Shown: piece by piece, positions 56,194 through 61,977 of the stretch
Position numbering within the stretch: position 1 is the stretch's first letter
Layout: the number at the start of each line of letters is the position of its first letter
Assembly (NCBI RefSeq): GCF_017565305.1
Contig: NZ_JAGEKP010000004.1
Span: 62,001-126,000, forward strand
Direction of reading: 5' to 3'
Origin: Leifsonia sp. TF02-11
Lineage (GTDB): Bacteria > Actinomycetota > Actinomycetes > Actinomycetales > Microbacteriaceae
Length of the DNA: 64,000 nt
Position numbers and translations under genes: made by a program
The notes under the pieces: model-generated
What the model was told of the DNA's origin: nothing
The model's database searches: none
The model's input: the letters and a program-made list of their open reading frames with translations, nothing else

Positions 56194-56199
56194 TACGAT
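56194..56199 (+). promoter_or_regulatory. -10 hexamer TACGAT of the first gabT gene
   Basis: TACGAT is followed by seven bases and ATG 56207. The ATG at 56198 falls inside it. Confidence 0.55.
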
Positions 56200-56206
56200 G
56201 GAGGTC

Positions 56207-57544
56207 ATGACCCGTGACTTCTCCGTTCCCCAGTCCCGCCACCTCGTCACCGAGCTGCCCGGCCCGCGGTCGGTCGAGCTGCAGCAGCGCAGAGTCGCCT
56301 CGGTCAGCCGAGGCGCCGGCACCCTGGCGAACATCTACATGGAGTCCGGTTCCGGCGCCATCCTGGTCGACGTCGACGGCAACCGTCTCATCGACCTGGG
56401 TTGCGGCATCGGCGTCACGACCATCGGCCACGCGCACCCCGGCGTCGCGGCGGCCGCCGCCGAGCAGGCCGCCAAGCTCACCCACACGCTCTTCACCGTG
56501 ACGCCGTACGAGAACTACGTGCGCGTCGCCGAGAAGCTCGCCGAGATCACCCCCGGCGACTTCGAGAAGCGCAGCATCCTGGTCAACTCGGGCGCGGAGG
56601 CCGTCGAGAACGCGGTGAAGATCGCGCGCAAGCACACGGGCCGGCGTGCGATCGCGACCCTCGACCACGCGTTCCACGGCCGCACGAACCTGACCATGGC
56701 GATGACCTACCGTCCCTGGCCGGAGCGCGCAGGCATGGGACCCTTCCCCGGCGAGATCTACAGCCTCCCGATCAGCTACCCCTTCCGCGATCCGGAGGGG
56801 ATGACCGGTGAGGAAGCCGCCGAGCGGACGATCGACTACATCACCACCCACATCGGCGCCACCGAGCTCGCGGCGCTGTTCGTGGAGCCGGTGCAGGGCG
56901 ACGGCGGCATCATCATCCCGGCTCCCGGCTACTTCCGACGGCTCTCGGAGTTCTGCACCGAGAACGGCATCGTGTTCGTGGCGGACGAGATCCAGGCCGG
57001 CATCGGCCGTACGGGAACGTGGTACTCGATCGAGCACCACGGCGTCGTCCCCGATCTGGTGACCAGCGCGAAGGGCATCGCCGGCGGTTTCCCGCTCGCC
57101 GCCGTGACCGGCCGCGCCGAGATCATGGACGCCGTGCAGCCCGGCGGCATCGGCGGCACCTTCGGCGGCAACCCGGTGTCGACGGCCGCGGCGCTGGCCG
57201 TGTTCGAGGCCTTCGAGCAGGAGGACCTGCTCGCGGAGGCCCGCCGCGTCGAGAAGGCCCTGTGGGCGCGCATCGGCGACTGGGCCGAACGGTTCCCGGT
57301 CGTCGGCGAGGTGCGCGGCGTCGGCGCGATGTTCGGCATCGAGCTCGTCGTCCCCGGTACGAAGAAGCCGAACCCGGAGGCGCTGAAGGCCGTCCTCGCG
57401 CACGCCACGGCCAACGGCGTCATCCCGCTCGACGCCGGAAGCTGGGACAGCGTCCTCCGCCTCCTGCCGTCCGTCGTGATCAGCGAGGAGCTGATCGACG
57501 ACGCGGCGACCGTGATCGAAGAGGCGCTCGGCCGCCTCGGCTGA
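56207..57544 (+). CDS. gabT: 4-Aminobutyrate aminotransferase, copy 1
   Basis: This pyridoxal-phosphate enzyme of 445 residues converts GABA to succinate semialdehyde. Lysine K289 in SAKGIAGGFPLAAVTG is the cofactor site, and FVADEIQAGIGRTG precedes it. It is clearly paralogous to the gene at 60622, with many shared blocks (SILVNSGAEAVENAVKIARKHTGRRA). ATG 56207 fits a leaderless mRNA. A secreted protein gene follows after ten bases. Confidence 0.92.
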   Translation: MTRDFSVPQSRHLVTELPGPRSVELQQRRVASVSRGAGTLANIYMESGSGAILVDVDGNRLIDLGCGIGVTTIGHAHPGVAAAAAEQAAKLTHTLFTVTPYENYVRVAEKLAEITPGDFEKRSILVNSGAEAVENAVKIARKHTGRRAIATLDHAFHGRTNLTMAMTYRPWPERAGMGPFPGEIYSLPISYPFRDPEGMTGEEAAERTIDYITTHIGATELAALFVEPVQGDGGIIIPAPGYFRRLSEFCTENGIVFVADEIQAGIGRTGTWYSIEHHGVVPDLVTSAKGIAGGFPLAAVTGRAEIMDAVQPGGIGGTFGGNPVSTAAALAVFEAFEQEDLLAEARRVEKALWARIGDWAERFPVVGEVRGVGAMFGIELVVPGTKKPNPEALKAVLAHATANGVIPLDAGSWDSVLRLLPSVVISEELIDDAATVIEEALGRLG

Positions 57545-58533: not shown

Positions 58534-59304
58534 GTGAACCAGCGCACTCCCGACGATGGGCAGCCGACCGACGACGACGTCGTCCCGCGCCCCGGCCTCA
58601 CGTATTTCGTAGGCCGGCACATCGTCGCTCCGCTGCTCCGGCTCGTCTACCGACCCAAGGTCATCGGGACTCGCAACGTCCCCAAGCACGGCAAGATCAT
58701 CCTCGCCAGCAACCACCTGTCGTTCATCGACTCCCTCGTCATCCCGATGACGGCGCCGCGCCGCGTGCAGTTCCTCGCCAAGTCGCACTACTTCGAAGGC
58801 ACGGGCCTGAAGGGTGCGATCTCCCGCTCCTTCTTCACCGCGATCGGCGCCGTCGGCGTCAAGCGCGGAGCAGGACAGGCGGCTCAGGAGGCTCTCGAGC
58901 AGTCCCGCCGCATCATCGACACCGGCGCAGCGTTCGCCGTCTATCCCGAAGGGACCCGCTCTCTCGACGGCCGTCTATACAAGGGCAGGACGGGGATCGG
59001 CTGGCTGGCGCTCACCACGGGTGCCAAAGTGGTGCCGGTCGGTCTGATCGGGACGGCCGAGGTGCAGCCGGTCGGAGCGAAGTTCCCCCGCGTGCGCCCG
59101 ATCACGATCGCCTTCGGCGAGCCCATCGACGTCGCACACTACGGATCGGCCGACTCCGGCCGCGCCCGCCGCCAGGCGACCGACGAGATCATGGCCGCCA
59201 TCCACGCCCTCACCGGGCAGGAGCTGGCCGGCACCTACAACGAGTCGCCGCCGGCCAACACCGTCGAGCGGGTCAAGCGGGCTCTGCGGCCCGAGCGCCT
59301 CTAG
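58534..59304 (+). CDS. 1-Acyl-sn-glycerol-3-phosphate acyltransferase (PlsC family)
   Basis: This 256-residue enzyme has the HX4D motif in NHLSFID (H61, D66) and the glycerol-phosphate-binding PEGTRS (138-143). It transfers an acyl chain in phospholipid synthesis, or a related acceptor. Its stop and that of the convergent CGNR gene share the palindrome CTAG (59301-59304). Confidence 0.95.
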   Translation: MNQRTPDDGQPTDDDVVPRPGLTYFVGRHIVAPLLRLVYRPKVIGTRNVPKHGKIILASNHLSFIDSLVIPMTAPRRVQFLAKSHYFEGTGLKGAISRSFFTAIGAVGVKRGAGQAAQEALEQSRRIIDTGAAFAVYPEGTRSLDGRLYKGRTGIGWLALTTGAKVVPVGLIGTAEVQPVGAKFPRVRPITIAFGEPIDVAHYGSADSGRARRQATDEIMAAIHALTGQELAGTYNESPPANTVERVKRALRPERL

Positions 59305-59798
59305 ACCTCGGCGGCAGACGCCGTTCCGGCGTGCTCCTCGCGGCGCGAGCGATAGGTGCGGGCCTTCTGGCGATTGCCGCACACCTCCATCGAGCACCAC
59401 TGTCGCGAGCCGTTCCGCGAGCTGTCGTAGAACGCCCAGCGGCAGTCGTCGCCTCCGCAGAGCTTCACTCGCGCGAGCTTGCCCTGGATGCTGAGCACCA
59501 CCGAGCTGGCCACCGCGGCCTCCGCAGCCGTGCGCGCACTCAGCTCGACCGTCCCCTCGTCGCACGCGGTCGCCAGTCGCACGTCGGGCAGCTCCGCCTG
59601 CTCGCCGTCGACGACCTGACGCAGCGCGTCACGCACCCGCCGGGCCTCGGCCGGCTCCCCCGCCTCGACGCCGTGCTCCCGCGCCCAGGCGGCGAAACCG
59701 GACGCGTCGTCGAGCGCGTCCGTCTGCTCCTCCACGTCGAGCGTGTTGAGAAACGCGACCAGGTAGTCGGCGCCGAGATCAGGCCTATTCGTACGCAT
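59301..59798 (-). CDS. CGNR zinc-finger transcriptional regulator
   Basis: This 165-residue protein has an amino-terminal ABATE-like stress-linked domain and a carboxyl CGNR zinc finger, with C114, C119, C135 and C140 and the CGNRQKA signature. Regulators of this family usually lie next to a transporter; here the neighbour is a 71-residue protein. ATG 59798 follows TACAAT by six bases. One of two 29-bp palindromes covers this promoter, so autoregulation is probable. Confidence 0.93.
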   Translation of the reverse strand: MRTNRPDLGADYLVAFLNTLDVEEQTDALDDASGFAAWAREHGVEAGEPAEARRVRDALRQVVDGEQAELPDVRLATACDEGTVELSARTAAEAAVASSVVLSIQGKLARVKLCGGDDCRWAFYDSSRNGSRQWCSMEVCGNRQKARTYRSRREEHAGTASAAEV

Positions 59799-59827
59799 GT
59801 AACCATTGTAACGCAATAGCGGGTTAC
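59799..59827. promoter_or_regulatory. 29-bp operator-like palindrome, copy 1
   Basis: GTAACC (59799-59804) and GGTTAC (59822-59827) are separated by 17 bases. It covers the -10 box and spacer of the CGNR gene. Copy 2, with the same 17-base spacing, matches it at 17 of 29 positions. Confidence 0.7.
59805..59810 (-). promoter_or_regulatory. -10 hexamer TACAAT of the CGNR gene
   Basis: TACAAT is followed by six bases and ATG 59798, and lies within palindrome copy 1. Confidence 0.6.
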
Positions 59828-59835
59828 GGTACGCT

Positions 59836-59864
59836 ATAACCACTCAACGCTGATAGGTGGTTAT
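59836..59864. promoter_or_regulatory. 29-bp operator-like palindrome, copy 2
   Basis: ATAACC (59836-59841) and GGTTAT (59859-59864) are separated by 17 bases; the outer 8 bases of each arm also pair. It ends just before the ATG of the 71-residue protein and includes its AGGTGG ribosome site. Its centre is 37 bases from that of copy 1. Confidence 0.7.
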
Positions 59865-59865
59865 C

Positions 59866-60081
59866 ATGCATCCGCTCGTCTTCTGGTCCATCTCGCAGGA
59901 CGCCCTGTTCCGTCGGCGGCAGGAGGACGCCATGCTCCGGGCGCAACACGACTCTGGAATCGAACAGCCCGCTCCGCTCAGCCGCGACGAACGCTGGGTC
60001 GCTGCCATCCACCGCTGGGCGGCGGCCGAACCGGTCCAGGCGCCGTCCGAGGCGCCGCGCCTGCGCAGACGCGCGGTCTGA
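59866..60081 (+). CDS. Small basic protein of unknown function, divergent from the CGNR gene
   Basis: This 71-residue protein has a hydrophobic start (MHPLVFWSISQDALF), then a charged helix-like RRRQEDAMLRAQHDS and a Pro/Arg-rich end. No family is recognised. AGGTGG lies five bases before ATG 59866; an in-frame GTG at 59857 is less likely. The paired palindromes upstream indicate control by the CGNR regulator. It could be a small regulatory or stress protein. Confidence 0.7.
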   Translation: MHPLVFWSISQDALFRRRQEDAMLRAQHDSGIEQPAPLSRDERWVAAIHRWAAAEPVQAPSEAPRLRRRAV

Positions 60082-60109: not shown

Positions 60110-60583
60110 TCAGGCGAGCGTCAGGAGCTCCGGCTCGTGACCGACCGGGAAGTTGACGCTCGCCGCGATGAAGCACTTGGCCGCGGCCGGCGCGTGCAGC
60201 GATGCGGCGAGTTCCGCCTGCGCAGGGTCGGCGATGGTGACCTTCGGGCGGAGGACGGCGCTGGTGAAGTGGCCGCCGCCGTCGTTGGTCTGCTCCATCA
60301 CACCGCTGGCGTGGTCGGTGTAGCCCACCACGACCACGCCGGCCCTGGCGGCCTCCGCCAGGTAGCTGAGCATGTGGCACTGACTGAGAGCCGCGAGCAG
60401 CAGCTCCTCCGGGTTCCACCGGTCGGTGTCGCCGAAGAAGGCGCGGTCGGCGGAACCCTCGATGGAATGCTTGCCCTCGGCGCTCACCGTGTGGTCGCGC
60501 CCATACGACTTGTAGCCGCTGGTCCCCTCCCCACGGTTGCCGGTCCACTGCACATCGATCTCGTAGCGGTGCTCAAGCTTCAT
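60110..60583 (-). CDS. OsmC-family peroxiredoxin-like protein
   Basis: This 157-residue OsmC/Ohr-fold protein has the two reactive cysteines C69 (LSQCHML) and C137 (AAKCFIA). It should reduce organic or lipid hydroperoxides. ATG 60583 follows a GAGAAT hexamer by six bases, a variant of the leaderless pattern. It converges with the 71-residue protein gene. Confidence 0.92.
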   Translation of the reverse strand: MKLEHRYEIDVQWTGNRGEGTSGYKSYGRDHTVSAEGKHSIEGSADRAFFGDTDRWNPEELLLAALSQCHMLSYLAEAARAGVVVVGYTDHASGVMEQTNDGGGHFTSAVLRPKVTIADPAQAELAASLHAPAAAKCFIAASVNFPVGHEPELLTLA

Positions 60584-60621: not shown

Positions 60622-61977
60622 ATGACTGACACCCTGAGCACGCCCACGTTCACCGTGGAGCAAGAACGCCGTATCGTCACCGCCGTCCCCGGCCCCAAGT
60701 CTCAGGAGCTGCACCAGCGACGCCTCGCCGTCGTCCCGACCGGCGTGTCGTCTGCGCTCCCCGTGTACATCGCGCGCGCCAACGGCGCCATCCTGGTCGA
60801 CGTCGACGGCAACCAGTTCGTCGACTTCGGTGCGGGCATCGGCGTCACGACGGTCGGCCACACCGAGACCGCCGTCGTCGCCGCCGCGGCCGACCAGCTG
60901 CAGGACGTCATCCACACGCTCTTCACGATCACGCCGTACGAGGAGTACGTGCGCGTCGCCGAGCTCCTCGCCGAGCGCACGCCCGGCGACCACGCCAAGA
61001 AGTCGGTGCTGGTCAACTCGGGCGCCGAGGCCGTCGAGAACGGCGTCAAGATCGCCCGCAAGCACACCGGCCGCCGCGCCGTCGCCGTGCTCGACCACGC
61101 GTATCACGGCCGCACCAACCTCACCATGGCGATGAACTACAAGGCGATGCCGTACGCCACCGGCTTCGGCCCGTTCGCCGGCGACGTCTACCACGCGCCG
61201 AACTCCTACCCCTACCGCGACGGACTCAGCGGCCAGGAGGCCGCCGCCCGCACCATCGCGTACCTGGAGAAGGTCGTCGGCGCCTCCGACCTGGCCTGCC
61301 TCGTCGCCGAGCCCATCCAGGGCGAGGGCGGCTTCGTGGTGCCGGCAGAGGGATACCTCACCGCCCTGCAGGAGTGGTGCACGGCGAACGGCGTCGTGTT
61401 CATCGCCGACGAGATCCAGAGCGGCATGGCCCGGACCGGCGCCTACTTCGCGAGCGAGCACTTCGGTCTCGTCCCCGACCTGGTGCTCAGCGCCAAGGGC
61501 ATCGCGGGCGGCCTCCCCCTCGCCGCGGTCACGGGCCGGGCCGAGATCATGGACTCCGCGCAGCCCGGCGGACTGGGCGGCACGTTCGGGGGCAACCCGG
61601 TCGCCGCCGCCGCGGCCGTCGCGGTCTTCGAGCAGATCGAGAAGGGCGACCTCCTCGCCCACGGCGCGCGGATCGAGAACGCGCTCAAGCCGGCCCTCGA
61701 GAAGCTGCAGCAGAAGTACGACATCATCGGCGACGTGCGCGGCATCGGGGCGATGGTCGCCGTCGAGCTGGTGCAGCCCGGCACGGCGCAGACCACTAAG
61801 GCCCCCAACCCGGACGCCGTGAACGCGATCATCGCCTACGCAGCCCAGCGCGGCATCCTGTTCCTCAACGCGGGCACCTGGGGCAACGTGCTGCGGTTCT
61901 TGCCGAGCCTCGCTGTGTCGGACGCCCTCATCGCCGACGCCGTCTCGGTTCTCGACGACGCCTTCGCCGCGCTGTGA
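60622..61977 (+). CDS. gabT: 4-Aminobutyrate aminotransferase, copy 2
   Basis: This 451-residue enzyme has cofactor lysine K292 in SAKGIAGGLPLAAVTG and VFIADEIQSGMARTG. It shares the overall sequence of copy 1 but differs in its amino end and in the substrate-loop region, so the two may differ in specificity (GABA, beta-alanine or putrescine-derived amines). A TAAACT hexamer lies ten bases before the ATG. The asparaginase gene overlaps its stop by four bases. Confidence 0.93.
   Translation: MTDTLSTPTFTVEQERRIVTAVPGPKSQELHQRRLAVVPTGVSSALPVYIARANGAILVDVDGNQFVDFGAGIGVTTVGHTETAVVAAAADQLQDVIHTLFTITPYEEYVRVAELLAERTPGDHAKKSVLVNSGAEAVENGVKIARKHTGRRAVAVLDHAYHGRTNLTMAMNYKAMPYATGFGPFAGDVYHAPNSYPYRDGLSGQEAAARTIAYLEKVVGASDLACLVAEPIQGEGGFVVPAEGYLTALQEWCTANGVVFIADEIQSGMARTGAYFASEHFGLVPDLVLSAKGIAGGLPLAAVTGRAEIMDSAQPGGLGGTFGGNPVAAAAAVAVFEQIEKGDLLAHGARIENALKPALEKLQQKYDIIGDVRGIGAMVAVELVQPGTAQTTKAPNPDAVNAIIAYAAQRGILFLNAGTWGNVLRFLPSLAVSDALIADAVSVLDDAFAAL

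Follow-up and report, generated by a model that had tools for sequence, protein, structure and literature searches.

In the window, i.e. the whole 64,000-nucleotide stretch of DNA analysed here, two 29-bp elements lie between a gene for a CGNR-type regulator and a divergent gene for a 71-residue protein, and I propose, with a good deal of confidence, that they are operators at which a dimer of the CGNR protein binds, blocking and repressing both promoters. Judged from sequence comparison, the case for the sites as operators is very strong, that for the CGNR protein as their reader is strong but indirect, and repression is suggested by their position. The features are as follows:

59301..59798, minus strand: CGNR regulator gene, 165 aa, ABATE domain and CGNR zinc finger, ATG at 59798-59796
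59799..59827, no strand: putative operator site 1, GTAACC-N17-GGTTAC, immediately beside the start codon of the CGNR gene, kept in 21/21 orthologous loci
59805..59810, minus strand: putative -10 of the CGNR gene, TACAAT, 6 nt before the ATG
59806..59811, plus strand: putative -35 of the small gene, TTGTAA, overlapping the CGNR -10, assigned by position and conservation
59830..59835, plus strand: putative -10 of the small gene, TACGCT, 18 nt past the -35, with the left arm of site 2 directly after it
59836..59864, no strand: putative operator site 2, ATAACC-N17-GGTTAT, over the putative transcription start of the small gene, kept in 20/20 loci with the small gene
59855..59860, plus strand: AGGTGG, a putative Shine-Dalgarno-like sequence before the small gene, shared with the right part of site 2
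59866..60081, plus strand: small protein gene, 71 aa, divergent from CGNR, with orthologues beside CGNR

The gene pair and its two sites

The regulator belongs to the ABATE-CGNR family (PF07336/PF11706), having both the N-terminal ABATE domain (Pfam, 4.6e-7, 30.9 bits, cut-off 24.4) and the C-terminal CGNR treble-clef zinc finger (zf-CGNR, 7.7e-20, 70.9 bits, cut-off 24, residues 110-153); its four cysteines and the CGNR motif are invariant across 17 aligned orthologues. The predicted model has a mean pLDDT of 81.1, with low confidence in the zinc-finger part. Among PDB sequences, 3h0n alone matches below E 0.001 (Jann_2411; 3.7e-6, on the zinc finger), and it is also the top fold match of the model, a weak one with poor overall superposition (E 1.7e-3, TM 0.28).

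Neither Pfam nor NCBIfam gives a match to the 71-residue protein up to E 0.1, and its AlphaFold model, two helices of low confidence, is too weak (pTM 0.32) to read a function from. The gene very likely encodes a real protein, since third-position changes dominate in the comparison of the window's genome (G000) with G026 (13 of 18 differences in 55 codons); 19 residues are invariant among the 13 of 15 genus sequences that were aligned. Across 396 genomes of the order its profile matched three, G000, G334 and G098, the last of which was set aside as weak (9.1e-4), with an in-frame stop, frames resembling an ABC transporter by eye, and no CGNR gene seen. As for the surroundings, an OsmC gene (60110-60583, minus strand) adjoins the small gene, an OsmC-like frame adjoins it in G334 as well, and two similar-looking aminotransferase genes stand either side of the region (56198-57544 and 60622-61977, the latter class III by Pfam).

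The two genes are separated by 67 nt, and in this gap lie both copies of RTAACC-N17-GGTTAY, 37 bases apart from start to start and in agreement at 17 of 29 positions. The first-pass annotation had described precisely these copies and thought chance an unlikely origin, and on both points it was right: the window holds exactly two exact matches to the pattern, compared with a mean of 0.00 in 100 dinucleotide shuffles, and the whole 5.09-Mb genome holds the pattern at these two places only. Its term "29-bp palindromes" is apt for the outer hexamers, which are inverted repeats, but not for the 17 inner bases, which are asymmetric and may contain promoter elements.

Conservation of the sites and of the putative promoters

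I compared 21 orthologous CGNR loci from three genera, 16 from the genus of the window and the others from g36 (G334, G518, G620) and g136 (G448, G519), scanning them with N17 required and one-base arm variants allowed. Among the 28 genomes of the genus, 16 have a strong CGNR orthologue and 15 of these also have the small gene, in each case beside the CGNR gene, and the pair is also found at all five loci of the two further genera. The gap between the genes is 67 nt in 14 of the 15 genus loci (75 nt in G003). The expectation that the palindromes accompany orthologous CGNR genes is borne out, with the variants allowed: site 1 occurs at 21/21 loci, always directly beside the CGNR start codon (one arm base is changed in G003 and in G009), and site 2 at 20/20 loci with the small gene, its left arm reading TAACC in 13 and TAACT in 7. 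The two sites lie 37 apart in 17 of the 20 loci, 38 apart in two others and 45 apart in the last; the small gene starts 1, 19 or 46-52 nt past site 2, with N17 kept throughout. A constant interior together with variable spacing outside is as expected of two separate protein-binding sites.

The distribution among genomes follows that of the regulator. Exact N17 motifs were found in 14 of the 28 genus genomes, all of them with an orthologue (G003 and G009 carry the variants), and in none of the 12 genus genomes without one. G006, which has the CGNR gene without the small gene, lacks site 2 and still has site 1, both arms included, with the remainder of the N17 partly altered. Among 398 genomes of the family, the double-site pattern alone, with no CGNR sequence used, picks out 11 (the reversed control picks out 2 other genomes), and all 11 are among the 13 that have a CGNR orthologue (E <= 1e-17). 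The remaining two of the 13, G446 and G650, whose CGNR proteins are at 44 and 42% identity and do not belong to the 21 loci, carry a single N17 site apiece, the former with one mismatch and the latter with none. Two loci deserve separate mention. In L016 (G005:C1:386543-387022) the CGNR orthologue shifts to another frame within the zinc finger, while the two operators are retained, the second with a single change in an arm; I take the frame change for a recent pseudogene or a sequence error. In L012 (G001) a run of ATTCGTSACGAAT-like palindromes lies beside the CGNR locus.

A generic promoter scan returned no promoter at this locus, and the promoter elements were assigned by conservation. Six nucleotides before the CGNR ATG stands TACAAT in 18 and TACAGT in 3 of the 21 loci, which suggests a leaderless CGNR transcript. 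At the place of the small-gene -10, TANNNT is present in 20/20 loci, and site 2 follows it directly in 17 of them, 1 nt later in two and 8 nt later in G003. Site 1 covers both the putative CGNR -10 and the putative small-gene -35, and its GGTTA lies between that -10 and the CGNR start codon. With promoters assigned in this way, the locus has what a local divergent autorepressor would have, i.e. operators over its own promoter and over that of its target.

Away from the CGNR locus, the genus contains two exact N17 sites. One of them, in G006 (L046:2520-2548), abuts the GTG of an EamA transporter gene in the order TACGCT-GGTTAT-GTG, a layout like the TACAAT-GGTTAC-ATG of the CGNR gene. This site looks real, and the gene, present in one of the 28 genus genomes (E <= 1e-40), is possibly a newly acquired target. 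The other, G019:C1:2636516, lies near an integrase-like frame (by eye) and has no clear target. Allowing one mismatch and requiring a start codon, the same search in the genus returned, besides the CGNR locus and the EamA site, a single GC-rich match in each of G021 and G001; the reversed control returned two matches. A wider regulon outside the locus was not found in the 28 genus genomes with either the exact or the one-mismatch N17 pattern.

A probable common half-site with clade-specific spacing

The first-pass annotation had suggested a possible operator motif for the CGNR family, and the motif turns out to reach further than proposed, with a spacer of 9, 17, 18 or 19 depending on the clade, though not in every clade. 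Probably, a large CGNR branch in Actinomycetes, among the proteins with a W-C-x-M finger, reads the common half-site GGTTA, its clades differing in the spacing of two inverted half-sites (9 or 17-19 bp, a difference of about one helical turn), and the sites, often paired, would be operators over leaderless promoters of the CGNR gene and a divergent target.

The comparison covers 227 CGNR loci: 80 regions from genus-genome matches, 80 from class-sample matches, 30 more class-sample loci, 16 further genus or family homologues and the 21 orthologues. Spacers were counted in 187 of these genes, over the 450 nt before the zinc finger, as exact TAACC-Nn-GGTTA; the other 40 loci were missed by the zinc-finger expression and scanned separately, giving N18 in L269, L275 and L279, N6 in L304, N17 plus an N8 cross-arm match in the orthologue L016, and nothing in 35. 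One gene, on G000:C5, was counted twice (L102 and L213); it has no exact site and both copies entered the clusters. In the 187 genes, orthologues included, there are 57 exact counts versus 0.13 expected by shuffling: n = 9 in 19, n = 17 in 25, n = 18 in 7 and n = 19 in 1, with five further counts at n = 0, 8 or 24 in orthologues of the window's gene (L004, L007, L008, L095, L096), where arms of different site copies combine. The 167 non-orthologues have 35 exact sites in 74,591 upstream bases, with n = 9 (19), 17 (8), 18 (7) and 19 (1) only, and in the 221,944 other bases of their loci TAACC-Nn-GGTTA with n = 0-30 was not found.

Clustering at 50% identity gives 54 CGNR clusters. Exact sites occur in 17 of them, five with N9, six with N17, five with N18 and one with N19; the orthologues of the window's gene make up two of the six N17 clusters (L001 and L099). 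A site is present in 17 of 35 clusters with the W-C-x-M zinc finger versus 0 of 19 others (Fisher p 1.3e-4, for an association that was first noticed and then tested on the same data), which leaves 18 of the 35, and all 19 others, without an exact site in the region scanned. A universal TAACC/GGTTA code has to be rejected, as the FCSVRCGNR cluster (L128) has exact sites in 0/32 and the YCDSRTCGNR cluster (L231) in 0/18; these two clades may use another operator.

Other CGNR genes, too, have GGTTA a single base ahead of the start codon. The pattern TAACC-N9-GGTTA-N-RTG occurs exactly at 18 loci in the 28 genus genomes; 17 are starts of CGNR-family genes, and 16 start a protein with an in-frame CGNR finger. 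L186 (G006:C2:1633796-1633818 and downstream) has an intact N9 operator, a start and a matching N-terminus with no in-frame zinc finger, and the match at G004:C1:4069788 coincides with no CGNR place found in the genus. With one mismatch the N9 pattern is unspecific (56 rows versus 35 in the reversed control). In 88 genomes of the class, the exact pattern matched 6 genomes (reversed control, 1); two of the six loci are CGNR genes, at 72-73% GC, and the other four are in loci of 47-52% GC.

The genes divergent from these regulators were identified by a Pfam run on 9 proteins. Where the sites are paired, the gene in this place encodes an alpha/beta hydrolase in L324 and L329 and, judged by sequence similarity, in L325, an MFS transporter in L326 and, judged in the same way, in L330, or a glyoxalase in L337. 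Single sites stand beside an MFS gene in L334, the unit of G650, with a similar-looking gene in G446, and beside a flavodoxin-like protein in L328; the N9 unit L323 has a glyoxalase gene beside two one-mismatch sites, and Pfam gave no match for the L331 partner. Within these units, adjacent sites are 31 to 57 apart from start to start, and several pairs have a mismatch in one or both sites. In G870 a single 19-bp site is shared by two divergent genes, CGNR and a frame that looks glyoxalase-type by eye, both of which start 1 nt beyond a GGTTA. As other CGNR units place an enzyme or transporter there, the small protein is presumably the regulated output of the CGNR unit in the window. The absence of the usual transporter, which the first-pass annotation had remarked upon, is correct for this locus; it does not extend to the other CGNR units, which do have an enzyme or transporter in this position, nor to G006, where the EamA start abuts an exact N17 site.

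Proposed mechanism, alternatives and known systems

The mechanism that I infer combines putative promoters, binding by the CGNR protein, repression rather than activation, a ligand, and the small protein as output. An ABATE-CGNR dimer, which inverted-repeat operators fit, would bind RTAACC-N17-GGTTAY with one zinc finger per TAACC/GGTTA half-site. At site 1 it would cover the -10 of the leaderless CGNR gene up to the start codon, together with the -35 of the divergent small gene, and at site 2 the start point and the ribosome-binding region of the small gene. As the sites lie over both promoters, the bound protein would block both, resulting in autorepression and repression of the small gene, which a ligand of the ABATE domain would relieve. 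A protein bound at GGTTA between the -10 and the start codon of CGNR, or at site 2 just past the small-gene -10, should block the polymerase.

Alternatively, the sites may be CGNR operators that serve to activate the small gene, and perhaps the CGNR gene as well, or to combine autorepression with activation of the partner. The -35 elements of both putative promoters are weak (the small gene has TTGTAA, and nothing clear stands in front of CGNR) and the generic scan saw no promoter, as activation would allow. However, both sites overlap a putative -10, start point or ribosome-binding region instead of lying upstream of the -35, positions that usually mean repression, and the recurrent GGTTA one base before the start codon of other CGNR genes also speaks against activation, which I regard as unlikely. 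It is more doubtful still, and quite improbable, that a regulator other than CGNR binds TAACC/GGTTA and controls the CGNR genes. The two exact N17 sites away from the CGNR locus could be read in this way, but the 12 genus genomes without the orthologue lack the exact motif, and the spacer goes with the CGNR clade (9, 17, 18, 19), which is hard to explain by a third protein.

There is very little chance that site 2 acts as RNA, with ATAACCAC and GTGGTTAT pairing in the leader of the small gene and hiding the Shine-Dalgarno sequence. The arms in G000 could indeed pair over 8 bases, the right one overlapping AGGTGG (by eye); however, the left arm is at or before the putative start point, five loci in the two other genera keep N17 at 19 or 46-52 nt before the start codon, and site 1 abuts its start codon without any leader. 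That overlapping promoter and start signals alone account for the conservation, with no bound regulator, is next to negligible, for even though the N17 of site 1 partly consists of the putative CGNR -10 and small-gene -35, the arms fall outside the promoter hexamers and, together with N17, are conserved across three genera, and the right arm of site 1 persists in G006, where the small gene is missing.

CGNR matches are present in 60 of 89 Actinomycetes genomes sampled, up to 12 per genome, and the literature found treats CGNR proteins as putative regulators only. If true, the half-site and spacer rule would be the first operator code for the family, as far as the literature searched shows; no CGNR operator was found there, in a search covering a minority of the subscription papers, and one may be in print elsewhere. 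The rule would allow targets to be predicted from sequence, and the sites point to the functions controlled: detoxification-like enzymes and exporters elsewhere, and an uncharacterised small protein at this locus. A Bordetella CGNR gene, bp3097, is listed with altered expression in a table that also contains modA and modB, in the portion of the report drawn on here (PMC9976334).

The closest described protein is Jann_2411 (PDB 3h0n), for which the portion of its report used here describes the ABATE fold, considers a dimer likely and predicts that the zinc finger binds DNA (PMC2954205). No operator, target or ligand is given in that portion (PMC2954205), whereas for the CGNR protein of the window the operators, their spacing and the partners are defined by comparison. 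The same two domains are found in the window's protein, both above the Pfam cut-offs.

In its arrangement, the proposed unit is like the local divergent autorepressors of the TetR/LacI kind, in which regulator and target are divergent, their promoters overlap and inverted-repeat operators lie over both. It differs from them in the predicted DNA reader, which is the C-terminal treble-clef zinc finger and not a helix-turn-helix, and in the sites, as those of CGNR have half-sites of 5-6 bp and spacers (9 or 17-19) that are specific to the clade.
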